Below, one piece after another: positions 27,591 to 34,175 of a stretch of 35,788 nt of DNA (positions within the stretch are counted from its first letter, which is position 1; each line of letters opens with the position of its first letter). Position numbers and translations under genes: made by a program. Source of the DNA: Clostridia bacterium (GTDB lineage: Bacteria > Bacillota > Clostridia > Christensenellales > Borkfalkiaceae); assembly GCA_029062045.1 (NCBI GenBank), contig JAIDQV010000140.1, positions 1 through 35,788 of the forward strand. The letters run 5' to 3'. A model generated the notes under the pieces. The model saw nothing but the letters and a program-made list of their open reading frames with translations, did not search any database and was not told the DNA's origin.

Positions 27591-27851
27591 ATGCATAACA
27601 AAATGTCTGCCACGGGAGTATTGGCACACTTAATTTACATATTGGAATCCAACTTGTCAGAACTAACTTCCTCCGCGCATAAAGACGACTATATTATGGG
27701 CAGTTGGGAAGCCTGCATAGAATGTCTTGAAATTATCGGCTGTTGGACACAGGCGAAAGACTACGGTTTGAATTACAACCCCGAAATTAAGTTTAATATG
27801 GAAACGGCGCAGTGTTGCTGCCCGTCAACAACACTGCGCCGCAAAAAATAA
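27591..27851 (+). CDS. small hypothetical protein
   Basis: 86-aa ORF with SD AAGGAG; last 17 residues encoded in a hairpin. Confidence 0.5.
   Translation: MHNKMSATGVLAHLIYILESNLSELTSSAHKDDYIMGSWEACIECLEIIGCWTQAKDYGLNYNPEIKFNMETAQCCCPSTTLRRKK
27805..27841. terminator. 13-bp hairpin overlapping the 3' end of ORF 27591-27851
   Basis: CGGCGCAGTGTTG-n11-CAACACTGCGCCG. Confidence 0.5.
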
Positions 27852-27864
27852 AATTTTAACCGTT

Positions 27865-29340
27865 TTACGCCAAGCGCAAAGTTTCCTCTTCAATGAGTTC
27901 AACGGTAATTCCCTTGCGTGCGGCACATACCGCAACCACACTTTCACGGAAGGTGCGCACCGTAACCGAGCGCCGCCCGTCGAAAGCAATTTCTATAAAC
28001 TTTGTAAACCCGAAGCTCTGCGGATCTTCGTCAAGCGTAAAACTTGCGCCGTACTTTGACAAAATTTCAAAAACCGTAAAAAGTCCTATACCGCTACCGC
28101 CGCTGCCCGCGCGTGTAGTAACCTGTTCCGAGCCAAGCCTTTTAAGCACTTCTTCATCGAACTGTTCGCCGCTGTCGTAAATACGTAAAAGCGGCTTTTT
28201 GTTTGCCGTTTCACTAAGCTCTACGCGCACTTTTGCATCTTGCGAGCCTAGTGCGGAAATAATTGCGTTATCGCATAAATAGCTAAGCAAAATATGTATA
28301 TCTTCTTTGTCTAACTTGAATTCCGTAAACCAGCCTTCAACGTCTGCGGAGACGTTTGCGCTTACTCTTAATTTTGAGCGTTCCGCCGCGGCAAACAGCT
28401 GAATTATAGGAACGTCTATTACTCTTACGCCCGTTTGCGGAATGTTTTGCAAACTGCACTTTTCGTTTGCGAGGTTCATCTCGCGCAAAATACGGTGTAA
28501 CGCATCCCCAGCTGCACACGCGTCCGCGCAACCCGTTTGTGCCGCGGCGCTTTCCGCAAGGAGGGCGCAATCCGGCACGGCTTTATTCAGATAGTGAAAA
28601 AGTTTAGCGTAAACGGCAACCTGCAAATCATTTTCAGCGGAGTTTAATTTATATTCCTCTACCGTATCTTCCAGACGTTTAACGTTCTGCTGTTCACCCG
28701 CCTCGCGGTAAGTATAAGTAATATGCCTCCGCCACCAAACGATGAGCAACAGCCCGCATAACCCTATTACGAGAAGAACGACTTTTACCAAATAATATTT
28801 TACTTCTTCTGCATATAGTAGCATCATAGTAAAAATGCAAATTACGCTTAGGTACAATAAAATATCAAAGGTTGCGTTTTTGTTTTTAGGATTGATACCG
28901 CTTTGCAACCGCTTAGCCTTGAACAAACCAAATACACCGACAATTTGTACTGCGCCAATAATTAATTGTAAAATAATTGCTCTGACTGTTTCAACTTCTA
29001 TTTGGTACACAGCCAGCGCCGCTAGAAAACCTATAAGAAAAGCCGGCAACATTAATACTATTGAAATGCCCAGCGCAATAGTGCCTACCGCAACCGTTTC
29101 GTAAAATGATTTTCTAAACCGCACAAACAAAAATGCAACACCGAAAACAAGTAAGCCTACCGGCACAAGTATTTTTACATAGACTTTTACAAAGTGTAAA
29201 GCTACGGATAAAGCCATAAACAGTAGAATATCAAACAAGTCCCAAACCTTCAGCTTTATACGCAGCAATTTGGTATAAGCGTACAACATGCAAATAAATA
29301 TTGCAGTGTATTTAATAAAAGAATTAATAAACTCATTCAT
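27865..29340 (-). CDS. membrane sensor histidine kinase with GHKL ATPase (AgrC-like architecture)
   Basis: About 7 N-terminal TM helices; N box ILLSYLCDNAIISA, G1 LRIYDSGEQF, G2 GSGGSGIGLFTVFEI; divergent DHp-like KLFHYLNK. Confidence 0.75.
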   Translation of the reverse strand: MNEFINSFIKYTAIFICMLYAYTKLLRIKLKVWDLFDILLFMALSVALHFVKVYVKILVPVGLLVFGVAFLFVRFRKSFYETVAVGTIALGISIVLMLPAFLIGFLAALAVYQIEVETVRAIILQLIIGAVQIVGVFGLFKAKRLQSGINPKNKNATFDILLYLSVICIFTMMLLYAEEVKYYLVKVVLLVIGLCGLLLIVWWRRHITYTYREAGEQQNVKRLEDTVEEYKLNSAENDLQVAVYAKLFHYLNKAVPDCALLAESAAAQTGCADACAAGDALHRILREMNLANEKCSLQNIPQTGVRVIDVPIIQLFAAAERSKLRVSANVSADVEGWFTEFKLDKEDIHILLSYLCDNAIISALGSQDAKVRVELSETANKKPLLRIYDSGEQFDEEVLKRLGSEQVTTRAGSGGSGIGLFTVFEILSKYGASFTLDEDPQSFGFTKFIEIAFDGRRSVTVRTFRESVVAVCAARKGITVELIEEETLRLA

Positions 29341-29346
29341 AAACGT

Positions 29347-29400
29347 ATTATATCACAAAACTAGTCAAAATTCGACAAAACTTCCCAAAATTTAACAAGC
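29347..29400 (-). promoter_or_regulatory. kinase promoter (TATAAT, 29347-29352) with 10-bp-periodic tandem boxes including a perfect 0A box
   Basis: Minus strand: TTGTTAAATT TTGGGAAGTT TTGTCGAATT TTGACTAGTT TTGTGATATA AT. Confidence 0.65.
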
Positions 29401-29443
29401 GTTTATGCTTTACACTCAAAGAAAAAAGGGGGGGCGCTTACAT

Positions 29444-29503
29444 ATGTTTTGGAGCTATCTTAAAGAAGTTTGGAACTGGTGCATAAATTGGTGGTATATC
29501 TAA
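29444..29503 (+). CDS. micro-ORF, 19-aa Trp-rich peptide MFWSYLKEVWNWCINWWYI
   Basis: G-rich SD-like AAAAGGGGGGG 9 nt upstream; strong terminator 9 nt after the stop. Confidence 0.4.
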   Translation: MFWSYLKEVWNWCINWWYI

Positions 29504-29511
29504 TCAAAAAT

Positions 29512-29543
29512 AAAAGCGGGTTGCAATTTTGCAACCCGCTTTT
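29512..29543. terminator. strong bidirectional terminator
   Basis: AAAAGCGGGTTGCAA-TT-TTGCAACCCGCTTTTT. Confidence 0.9.
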
Positions 29544-29546
29544 TCA

Positions 29547-30326
29547 TTAATTAAAGTGACTTATCAGTTTTTGTTTGTAGAAAAATACAAACTCGTAAAC
29601 GGTCGGAGCGTCTTTATCTTTACGCAACGGCGCAGTATAATACTTTTGTAAGTTATTTATATCTGCGTTTTTCCAAGTATTGTTTATCGCGTATTGCATT
29701 GCGTGCGTAACGCTGTCTTCGCTTGCGCCAAACTTTTTGCCGATAATTTTACCCCAATTTTGATTTTCATCATTGGCCGCCAGTATAACAGCTTCAACCA
29801 AATAATTATAACCTTTGTTTTTGACGCTTACGCCAAGGTTGTTAAATTCGGCTTGCACGAGTTCGCGCATCTTGGTTTCCAACTGCTGTTCGTTAAGCGG
29901 GACGGCCGGTTCTTCTTCACAGCCCAAAATTTCAGGCATAACTCTAAGCAGGTGTTCAATCACCATCTTAGGCGAGTAACCTTTTTGCCATTTTGCGAAT
30001 TCGTAATCCGCACCCATCTTCTTTGCGCTACTACGCGTAACTTTACTTGCGCTATTAGTGTTGACAACAATGTACGGCTTAGGGCAAAGAACGGTTGAAC
30101 GCAGTTTATCTAAAAGGTCCATTCCGTCGCCGCTACCTTCTTGAAGCTCTAAATCCAATATTACCGCATTAGGTTTTTGGTTGCGGATAAAAGCGAACGC
30201 GTCGTCTGAAGATTTCGAAACGCCTGCAAGGCAAAGCCTATCCGTGTTTGCGTTAACCTCTGCAGCCAACGCATTTCGATCGTTTTCATCGTCTTCAACA
30301 ATAAGTACGTTAAGTTTATTTGTCAT
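29547..30326 (-). CDS. response regulator with Spo0A-type C-terminal DNA-binding domain
   Basis: REC: LIVEDDENDR...VILDLELQ...VVNTNS...FAKWQK; C-term NNLGVSVKNKGYNYLVEAVILAANDENQNWGKIIGKKFGASEDSVTHAMQYAINNTWKNADINNLQKYY...PTVYEFVFFYKQKL aligns with Spo0A_C. Confidence 0.85.
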   Translation of the reverse strand: MTNKLNVLIVEDDENDRNALAAEVNANTDRLCLAGVSKSSDDAFAFIRNQKPNAVILDLELQEGSGDGMDLLDKLRSTVLCPKPYIVVNTNSASKVTRSSAKKMGADYEFAKWQKGYSPKMVIEHLLRVMPEILGCEEEPAVPLNEQQLETKMRELVQAEFNNLGVSVKNKGYNYLVEAVILAANDENQNWGKIIGKKFGASEDSVTHAMQYAINNTWKNADINNLQKYYTAPLRKDKDAPTVYEFVFFYKQKLISHFN

Positions 30327-30697: not shown

Positions 30698-33247
30698 CTA
30701 TATGAATAGCTTTTTATTGTTATATTTAACCTGCTCTACTTCTTTAGAAATTTTCCTATACTTCATTAAATCATTATCTAAGTGCACTATTTTACCATCT
30801 TTCATCTTTATCATCTCGGCACGCTCTCTGTTTATATAAAGAGCACTTTCTCTTGAAAAGCCAATTTTCTGTAAAAGAATAACTCTATAATTATTTGATC
30901 CATATTCCACAAATTCATACCAGTCATTACCTGCAATATCTTGACCGCATTCAATCTTACGTTCTGAAAACTTAAGAAAATAATTTTTCAACTTAAATTG
31001 TATTATGTTTTCTAATGTATTTAAAACATCATTTATAATATGATTCCTTTGATCTAGCGAATCATCAAAATCAATATATTGTCCATCAATGTATATTTGT
31101 CCCTTTCTTCTATGCCAATCAATGGTAGATTCTATTATTTGTTGTACCCCAAACCCACAAATCCACTGCTGCAATATAACAGAAAAATACTTTAAACGCT
31201 CGATTTTCCCTAGTTCTGTTTTACTTTCATATTTGCCCCAATTAAAAATTCTATGTAGCTCACTCAAAAATTCAAAGGTATTTTTAAAACTAATTTCTTT
31301 AGGGTAAGTTAATTTCTTTAAATTTATATCCCTATCAACTTCTTCAATTTGATCCGCAGTCGTAACCAAGTCATCTTGTAAATATTTATTTTCTTTAAAC
31401 AATTCTTTTATTTTAGTAGCATCTTCCGTCGTAAGGACATCTTCAAAAATTTTAGAAACTTTACTCTTATTCCCGTTAACAATGTCTTTTAATAACATAT
31501 TTAGAGCATACCTGGCAAAGTTAAGTTCTTCATATGTGCCTTTCTTCTCAAGACTTGTTTTCCCCTCTAACAAAGTTTTTACAATATCTTTTTTTCGGTT
31601 AGTCGATAAATAGTATTCTATTGATAACTTTTGATCTTGAACATCTAAATTTATGGCGCGCTTATATTTTTCAAAGGTTGAATTATCCGAAATAAAAAAT
31701 ATATTCCCGAACATATTAAATTCAATTCGTCCTACTCTACCGACTAAATTTTTAAAGTCAACCCTTGATTCATCTTTAAGCCAAGGCGATGACGATTTTA
31801 ACATTAAAAACAAATTTTCAGCAGGAAAATTTACACCCTCTAATAGCGTAGATGTGCAAAAAACCGTTTGTATAATTCCTTTTTTAAATAAATCCTCTAT
31901 TTTTTCTTTTATTCGTGTTGGAATATATGCTACATGATAAGCAACTCTTCTTTTAAGAGTTTTAGCCAAATAACAATCCTCGTGTATTTCTTCCTTTACT
32001 TCTTCAATTAATTCATTCAACTCATCATTTTCTATTTCATCTAATAAAGAAGAAAATTCATTCGCCCATTGCACAGCTTCATTTTTAGTATTACAAAAAA
32101 CGATGTTACTTTTACCTTTCCCCAATTTTTGAACAATTTGTATTATATTTTCTCCCCAAGGAAAAGTTTCGGGCACATCTTCAAGCACATTAAAATCCTC
32201 ATCGACCTCTGAGTAGTAAAACAAATTATGACTATCATGATCAATAATAATTTTATTTTGGTTAACCGGAGAATATCGAATTCTTGTAGATGCTCTATTA
32301 AGATTATCGCTGACTAAATCTAAATATACTTGTGGATTGGGGATGTTCGGACAAGAGAAATAAATTCTTGCACTACTGTATTGTTTGTTAATTATACTCA
32401 TTATTTTGTAGAAAAAGGCACTTCTACCTTCACCTACAGAAATTTTATGTGCCTCGTCTATAAAAAGATAATTAACCACTTGATCTTTTACTTTCAGCAA
32501 ATGGTATAATAATCTTTCTTGCGTATATACCATTATGTAATTAAACTTATCATCCTCACCAACTATTGCAGCAGGAGATTTAACAACTTTGTAGTTATTT
32601 AAATCCAAGTTATCTTTTAAGTCATTTATAATATCGTTATAAATCTCGTTAATCAACGCATTGGTAGGAACAACAATTACAAAATTAGCCTTTTCTCCAC
32701 TAAGAATACACTCTTTGATAAACATACGAATAATAAATGTTTTCCCCAATGAAGTAGGTGCAGAGAAACTATAACTCTCACTCCTTTTCATATTATCGTA
32801 TGCAATGCTTTGTTTATTAATAAAATAACTTCCCTTTTCTCCGGGGATAGCATATTCTTCCTTAACTAAATACTCTCTTGCACATTCTACTAAATCAGAA
32901 TTAACATAATTGTCACAATTATTTGTTAGTCCAAAATAATTATTTACATTAGATAAAACGGACCCAAGATAATACTTAATTAATTCATCATTTGGATACA
33001 GTTTATTAAGTCTCGTCACAATATCTTGTGCCCAATTAAATAATTTATCTTTTTGTGCTTCATTTGTACACTTAGAAAGAATATCAGCAAAACGCAATGC
33101 ATCCATTTTCTCTTTTTGAGTAAGCGTAATGGCGTATTGATTATCTAAAATAGAATATGAATAATTTTCTACAGTCTTATTAAAAAGATAATGCAGGTAT
33201 TCATTTGATGCAATATTATTAAATAATAAATCACCGACTTTTATCAT
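30698..33247 (-). CDS. hamB: Hachiman HamB, DEAD/DEAH-box helicase
   Basis: Walker A SAPTSLGKTFI, DEAH motif LFIDEAHKIS, motif VI-like NLVGRVGRIE; directly downstream of HamA. Confidence 0.82.
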   Translation of the reverse strand: MIKVGDLLFNNIASNEYLHYLFNKTVENYSYSILDNQYAITLTQKEKMDALRFADILSKCTNEAQKDKLFNWAQDIVTRLNKLYPNDELIKYYLGSVLSNVNNYFGLTNNCDNYVNSDLVECAREYLVKEEYAIPGEKGSYFINKQSIAYDNMKRSESYSFSAPTSLGKTFIIRMFIKECILSGEKANFVIVVPTNALINEIYNDIINDLKDNLDLNNYKVVKSPAAIVGEDDKFNYIMVYTQERLLYHLLKVKDQVVNYLFIDEAHKISVGEGRSAFFYKIMSIINKQYSSARIYFSCPNIPNPQVYLDLVSDNLNRASTRIRYSPVNQNKIIIDHDSHNLFYYSEVDEDFNVLEDVPETFPWGENIIQIVQKLGKGKSNIVFCNTKNEAVQWANEFSSLLDEIENDELNELIEEVKEEIHEDCYLAKTLKRRVAYHVAYIPTRIKEKIEDLFKKGIIQTVFCTSTLLEGVNFPAENLFLMLKSSSPWLKDESRVDFKNLVGRVGRIEFNMFGNIFFISDNSTFEKYKRAINLDVQDQKLSIEYYLSTNRKKDIVKTLLEGKTSLEKKGTYEELNFARYALNMLLKDIVNGNKSKVSKIFEDVLTTEDATKIKELFKENKYLQDDLVTTADQIEEVDRDINLKKLTYPKEISFKNTFEFLSELHRIFNWGKYESKTELGKIERLKYFSVILQQWICGFGVQQIIESTIDWHRRKGQIYIDGQYIDFDDSLDQRNHIINDVLNTLENIIQFKLKNYFLKFSERKIECGQDIAGNDWYEFVEYGSNNYRVILLQKIGFSRESALYINRERAEMIKMKDGKIVHLDNDLMKYRKISKEVEQVKYNNKKLFI

Positions 33248-33251
33248 TTAT

Positions 33252-34175
33252 TCATCCCTCAAAATGATCTTTTGTTAATAACTGCTCCATAATTTTTTCT
33301 CTATCTTTATCAACATCATTAAATGGAAGAAAGTAAATATAAAAAGACATTCCTTTCAATTTTTTTTCTTCAATTTTTTCATCCAATTTTTTTACTATTT
33401 TAGGAATTTTTAATGTAATATTATTAATTGTATTTGCTCTGGTCTTCAATGAATCCCCTGTCGGTTCAATTTTTTCATCAAATCCAATAAATATACCTGC
33501 TGCAGTTTCTTTTATAACATTATTCTTAATATCTTCCGTCGTATTAGGAACAATTGAATTTATTACTTCTTGCGCCTCAGTTTCCGACATTGTTTCCTTA
33601 AAAATTTCCGTAGCAACAAGCGAAAAATCATATTCACGTTTTACAAGTGAACTAGATAGTGAATCAAACGCTTTAGAAATTGCCAGAGTACAATCGCCAA
33701 TTAATTTTGACTCACATAACACTACCTGATTATGCTTACCATAATCAGTTTCATATTGAAAATAATGTACGGCATCGGAATTATAATTATACTGATTGGG
33801 AGTTCCTTTTAACTCCATCTTACTTAACAATTTTGGGGCACCTAATACAACTTCTAAAAACAGATAAAGCAATAATTCGCCCAATTCTCCCCCCGCACCG
33901 GTTCCAGCATTCTTAACTTCATGGAATCGTGAGATCGCTTTAGAAATGGCCATTTCTAGGTCAGCTCTAAACTCTTTCCTTGACAATGCATATCTACCCA
34001 AATTTTTCTTGAGAATTTTAAATAGCTCATAATAGCTATACTGATTATTTTGAATATTTAATATAAAAAATTTAACTTGATTCTCGTTTGCTAAATCCAG
34101 TTTAACATTATGCGGAATTTCATAAAAGACCTTATCAAATTCTTCTTCCCCTATCGAAGACGTTTTAATTAACAT
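33252..34175 (-). CDS. hamA: Hachiman HamA, DUF1837 nuclease
   Basis: GGELGELLLYLFLEVVLGAPKLLSKMELKGTPNQYNYNSDAVHYFQ...VVLCESKLIGD; E...D...ExK pattern of DUF1837; SD GGGAGG. Confidence 0.85.
   Translation of the reverse strand: MLIKTSSIGEEEFDKVFYEIPHNVKLDLANENQVKFFILNIQNNQYSYYELFKILKKNLGRYALSRKEFRADLEMAISKAISRFHEVKNAGTGAGGELGELLLYLFLEVVLGAPKLLSKMELKGTPNQYNYNSDAVHYFQYETDYGKHNQVVLCESKLIGDCTLAISKAFDSLSSSLVKREYDFSLVATEIFKETMSETEAQEVINSIVPNTTEDIKNNVIKETAAGIFIGFDEKIEPTGDSLKTRANTINNITLKIPKIVKKLDEKIEEKKLKGMSFYIYFLPFNDVDKDREKIMEQLLTKDHFEG

Follow-up and report, generated by a model that had tools for sequence, protein, structure and literature searches.

The gap between a histidine kinase gene and the adjacent response regulator gene in the window (the whole 35,788-nucleotide stretch of DNA analysed) contains a 10-bp-phased array that faces the kinase gene on one side and, on the other, a conserved divergent peptide gene absent from the preliminary description of this DNA. 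We give an even chance to the reading that this array serves as operator to an autoregulated module made up of the peptide, a 7-TM GHKL kinase and a Spo0A-type regulator; the partner regulator probably acts there to switch the kinase and peptide genes alike. The region is organized as follows.

27591-27851, plus strand: gene for an 86-aa protein, convergent with the kinase gene
27865-29340, minus strand: histidine kinase with 7 predicted TM helices, an invariant H249 (HYLNK) and a GHKL ATPase
29347-29352, minus strand: kinase -10 element TATAAT, separated by ACGTTT (6 nt) from the kinase ATG at 29340
29349-29398, minus strand: array of five TTG-starting units in 10-bp phase, flanked by the -10 elements of the divergent promoters
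29371-29377, minus strand: exact 0A-like box TGTCGAA in the central array unit, overlapping the kinase -35 position
29391-29397, minus strand: weaker second 0A-like box TGTTAAA (5/7), 20 bp upstream of TGTCGAA
29411-29416, plus strand: peptide promoter -10 element TACACT (TATACT in several relatives)
29428-29434, plus strand: G7 tract, the peptide RBS (GGAGG in most relatives)
29444-29503, plus strand: 19-codon peptide gene (ATG, 18 codons and TAA) encoding MFWSYLKEVWNWCINWWYI, which recurs in relatives
29512-29543: terminator hairpin, a scan match on the minus strand that also lies 3' of the peptide gene on the plus strand
29547-30326, minus strand: response regulator, REC + Spo0A_C (58 bits), with a diverged recognition helix, DSVTHAMQYAI

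The preliminary description had proposed five units in exact 10-bp steps ahead of the kinase, and the minus-strand letters from 29398 to 29349 (TTGTTAAATT TTGGGAAGTT TTGTCGAATT TTGACTAGTT TTGTGATATA) bear this out, with units starting at 29398, 29388, 29378, 29368 and 29358. Lag-10 self-identity of the array is 0.60 versus 0.34 in dinucleotide shuffles (p=0.0005), and genome-wide pattern searches found four TTGs in 10-bp steps at one further site in the 1.44-Mb genome and zero matches to the reversed control pattern. The TATAAT placed 6 nt before the kinase ATG (29352-29347) was likewise confirmed, as was the lack of a good -35: there is no consensus -35 at 16-18 bp from the TATAAT, and the -35 position, 17 bp away, reads TCGAAT. 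The canonical TGTCGAA claimed for the central unit is present as a perfect core at 29377-29371, but the idea of five equivalent tandem 0A boxes was not supported. The units 10 bp to either side are poor 0A matches (TGGGAAG, 3/7, and TGACTAG, 4/7), and the central unit is the sole good 0A box among the array units of the window. The TGTTAAA box adjoins the site where a -35 of the peptide promoter would lie. An inverted repeat flanking the array, CATAAACG/CGTTTATG, was dropped because relatives do not have it, and a possible inverted-repeat reading of GTTAAAATT/AATTTTAAC, perfect in locus L047, fits less consistently than the direct-repeat reading.

Searches of genome contigs gave 14 loci with close relatives of the regulator (70-88% identity), some of which are truncated where the contig stops, and genus-, family- and order-wide searches added further loci. 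We aligned the gaps of 12 loci of this group, type A, window included, to give the consensus GTTAAATTTTGGGAGGTTTTATCGAATTTTAACTAATATTGTGATATAATnCGnTTATG. The CGAA core at the kinase -35 position is invariant in all 12, and the gap from TATAAT to ATG is 6 nt in every one of them (with TATAAA in L039 and TATACT in L041 and L048); because the -10 element lies so close to the start codon throughout, the kinase mRNA is predicted to be leaderless. C4 and G5 of the box are invariant and G2 is replaced by A in 8/12 loci; the commonest form is TATCGAA, and TGTCGAA occurs in 3/12 (the window, L041 and L048). Conservation is stronger in the T4 tracts, which recur every 10 bp, than in the TTGs, whose series of five belongs to the window only among the 12 aligned loci.

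A sister family, type B (~38% identical), has its own 10-bp-phased arrays in different letters. Self-identity peaks at lags 10 and 20 in both families, at 0.49 and 0.51 in type A and at 0.55 and 0.57 in type B, with most other lags at roughly 0.2-0.4, and lag 10 is non-significant in two arrays of each type. The type-B array of L063 (TGTTGGATTT TGTCGAAATT TGTCAAATTA TGGTGAAATA TG) carries true tandem boxes, TGTCGAA, TGTCAAA and TGGTGAA, at exact 10-bp steps and is thus a head-to-tail 0A array; it is the only one in which a second good box clearly lies 10 bp from the first. TGTCGAA is found in 2/5 type-B arrays, and in two arrays of this type no 7-mer matches 0A at ≥5/7. The conservation of period and box that the preliminary description named as support holds for the 10/20-bp periodicity, which extends across both types, and for the CGAA core, but not for the TTG series or for G2.

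The operator motif adjoins its own kinase in nearly all module-holding genomes and little else exceeds the control count. Pattern searches of the genome gave no wide regulon, as the motif is almost confined to its own kinase, with other 2-mismatch matches at the control level. Separately, a second exact match to the motif, TATCGAATTTTGACTTGTTTTG, lies at 191-212 of the window (plus strand) and runs on in 10-bp TTTTG steps. It is the sole other good operator-motif site in the genome and is located ~290 bp before a gene at 501-1430, for a repeat-containing, apparently secreted protein, and it also lies upstream of a TTGACA/TATTAT promoter on the minus strand.

The hidden peptide gene points away from the kinase, with the operator region common to both, and its -10 element at 29411-29416 means that the array sits between two divergent promoters, neither of which has a consensus -35. 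The ORF is present, with an RBS, in 13/13 type-A loci read (the window and 12 relatives); the stop is the same and length changes are whole-codon only. Its coding score is 2.96 against 0.77 ± 0.37 in column-permuted nulls (0/500 shuffles). The terminator at 29512-29543 is common to the convergent regulator and peptide genes, and its stem still pairs in L038, L042 and L047, where A-T replaces a C-G pair. A Trp attenuator was considered and rejected, since the terminator that closes the ORF also serves the antisense regulator gene, no operon lies downstream and the Trp content is variable. The G7 homopolymer also serves as the peptide RBS in L047, and strand slippage could vary it.

Similar genes extend well beyond type A. 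Type-B peptides are 15-16 aa long (MWKSFWNWLRNLWYCV, VWRSFWSWFRGFFFYL, MFKAFWSWFLTLLLI and others), the locus of a regulator 34% identical from another genus encodes MSFFDWIANWFNCIF, and loci in further genera carry MSAWERFLEFLRLLVSGR and MSFWERVIDFFAKLIG. Some 23 distinct peptides of 15-19 aa occur in the same place, in loci that span two or more families of the order. The peptide/kinase/regulator layout is kept where regulator families are 34-40% identical and elsewhere in the order, in further families. Of the regulator-kinase pairs inspected, G578 alone has no peptide gene; as a side observation, the regulator and kinase genes overlap in L130, with no peptide gene between them. The 21 peptides measured are 19% Trp and 40% aromatic, for most of them the helical hydrophobic moment ranks within the top few percent of values from shuffles of the same peptide, and they are mostly cationic. 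In type A, amino acid identity is 59% in the N-terminal half and 25% in the C-terminal half.

We hypothesize that the peptide is probably either the signal of the kinase, as in a pheromone circuit, or its membrane partner. The ATPase of the kinase matches HATPase_c_5, the least conserved stretch of the protein (residues 101-125) lies in the TM domain, and the AgrC cytoplasmic domain is among the weak Foldseek matches to a moderately confident structure model (pTM 0.42). The role favoured for the module is cell-cell signalling, but as a candidate only, because no exporter was found in the module and the coevolution signal between peptide and kinase sensor is weak (mirror-tree, 13 sequences only).

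Two other roles for the peptide merit attention. It could be a membrane-active effector, toxin- or bacteriocin-like, that is placed under two-component control and is not a signal, which would suit short, Trp-rich, amphipathic and mostly cationic helices and the defence genes that often adjoin the module, among them Hachiman, Pbe, restriction-modification and TIR with caspase genes. A Hachiman system (HamB helicase and HamA, 30698-34175, minus strand; PADLOC scores of 850 and 225 bits) lies directly upstream of the regulator in the window, and the flanks of L036, L037, L039, L047 and L073 hold PbeA/PbeC, a type I methyltransferase, a DNA methylase and a ThsB-like TIR with a caspase. This proximity, however, is a raw observation on several neighbourhoods, the peptide gene is coupled to the kinase gene and operator in nearly all loci, and no immunity gene was recognized; we regard an effector as unlikely. 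A role inside the cell, as a membrane partner that adjusts kinase activity without cell-cell signalling, much as MgrB acts on PhoQ, would agree with the amphipathic helix and with a module that has no leader, exporter or protease, but the fast-diverging C-terminal half is more typical of self/non-self signals, and we hold this role, too, to be improbable.

The module itself is patchily distributed: type A occurs in 10/93 genomes of the genus and sporadically elsewhere in the order, and its flanking genes change in almost every genome. The 86-aa protein, which belongs to no Pfam or PADLOC family, has a homologue at the corresponding position in most of the type-A loci, and no conserved exporter, protease or processing gene lies beside the module in type A.

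The Spo0A-type DNA-binding domain attributed to the adjacent regulator was borne out, with PF00072 and PF08769 above cut-off and the Spo0A DNA-binding domain 1lq1 as the best PDB profile match; this identity rests on profiles, as a fold search gave mainly receiver-domain matches. The protein is not a Spo0A orthologue, scoring 81.2 bits to the Spo0A equivalog TIGR02875 (cutoff 200) and carrying DSVTHAMQYAI in place of VERAIRHAI, and a separate true Spo0A with an intact recognition helix (SKVERAIRHAI) is encoded in the same genome. Type-A regulators have T/M/A and H/N in place of the E and R of the helix, which supports the earlier suggestion of altered specificity, and type B keeps VERA. Spo0A contacts G2, C4 and G5 of the box, and a G2A change cuts binding of C. 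difficile Spo0A ~10-fold (PMC3485338). A cognate regulator as reader fits with type A, in which C4 and G5 are kept and G2 is mostly replaced, and with the presence of TGTCGAA in two of five type-B arrays. Box letters and recognition helix thus appear to covary between the types, a suggestive but loose pattern that is not strict because the window pairs TGTCGAA with a TH helix. From these comparisons we infer that the phased boxes are read by the cognate regulator and not by Spo0A. Regulators of the same family without an adjoining kinase or peptide (L062, L064, L067 and L070-L072) adjoin a conserved ~217-aa protein (MSFFSNFQSDKCPG...).

If the master regulator Spo0A read the site, the kinase and peptide would fall within the sporulation or transition regulon. 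True Spo0A could bind in the window, since the box there is the canonical TGTCGAA, as it is in L041 and L048, and the genome encodes the protein with its recognition helix intact; yet G2, a Spo0A contact, is A in most of the aligned loci while the flanking motif is still conserved, and the box shifts, loosely, with the cognate helix. We judge this reading quite unlikely overall, and Spo0A is an unlikely reader in most relatives. It is very unlikely that the phased T-tracts are merely an intrinsically bent, UP-like promoter element with an incidental box, for although T4 tracts outlast the TTGs in conservation, the CGAA between them is invariant and type-B arrays keep 0A-like boxes amid different tracts.

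Under the operator reading, the phosphorylated regulator, a Spo0A paralogue, would oligomerize head-to-tail on 0A-like boxes spaced by 10 or 20 bp along one face of the DNA and act at both -35 regions of the divergent sigma-A-type promoters that lack a -35 consensus. Binding is suggested by family knowledge and by conservation. Activation would prevail over repression, such that kinase (from a leaderless mRNA) and peptide expression would be raised together. The amphipathic, Trp-rich peptide, exported if it is a signal, would then contact and act on the 7-TM kinase, a step suggested by the layout of the locus, and so close a feedback loop.

Tandem 0A boxes at the B. subtilis abrB and spoIIG operators offer a close parallel, with a REC + Spo0A_C regulator, TGTCGAA-like boxes, phased direct repeats and a box over a weak -35. 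Unlike Spo0A, the regulator described here falls far under the equivalog cutoff and has no ER recognition residues, and its operator does not conserve G2 in type A and adjoins its own kinase and peptide gene. The module resembles Agr (AgrC/AgrA) and Com (ComD/ComE) in combining a multi-TM GHKL kinase, a regulator and a short peptide gene, with probable autoregulation, and CSPs are amphipathic peptides as well. It differs from them in its output domain (Spo0A_C, not LytTR), in a peptide without a leader, in having no AgrB/ComAB-like processing or export gene alongside and in a peptide gene that points away from the kinase. SHP and ComS/XIP, also tiny ORFs with aromatic residues, are short leaderless hydrophobic signals, but their receptors are cytoplasmic Rgg/ComR proteins and not a kinase. 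MgrB is a small membrane modulator of the kinase PhoQ; the module peptide is likewise short, predicted to interact with the membrane and linked to a sensor kinase, but it is much shorter, is encoded inside the kinase-regulator locus and has no noted sequence similarity to MgrB. Among the titles and abstracts listed by searches of an open-access library, none describes such a system.

More tentatively, and with somewhat less than even confidence, we propose a new class of peptide-sensing two-component systems in uncultured Clostridia, in which leaderless Trp-rich pheromones of 15-19 aa, a 7-TM GHKL kinase made from a leaderless mRNA and a box-re-specifying Spo0A paralogue would achieve private autoinduction from one divergent phased operator. 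To our knowledge, almost no signalling systems are known from these Clostridia, in which our results indicate a family of tiny peptide genes that annotation easily misses. Spo0A-type DNA binding is familiar mainly from one master regulator; if the proposal is true, small peptide-kinase circuits of mobile appearance would have taken it up, their boxes and recognition helices shifting together.
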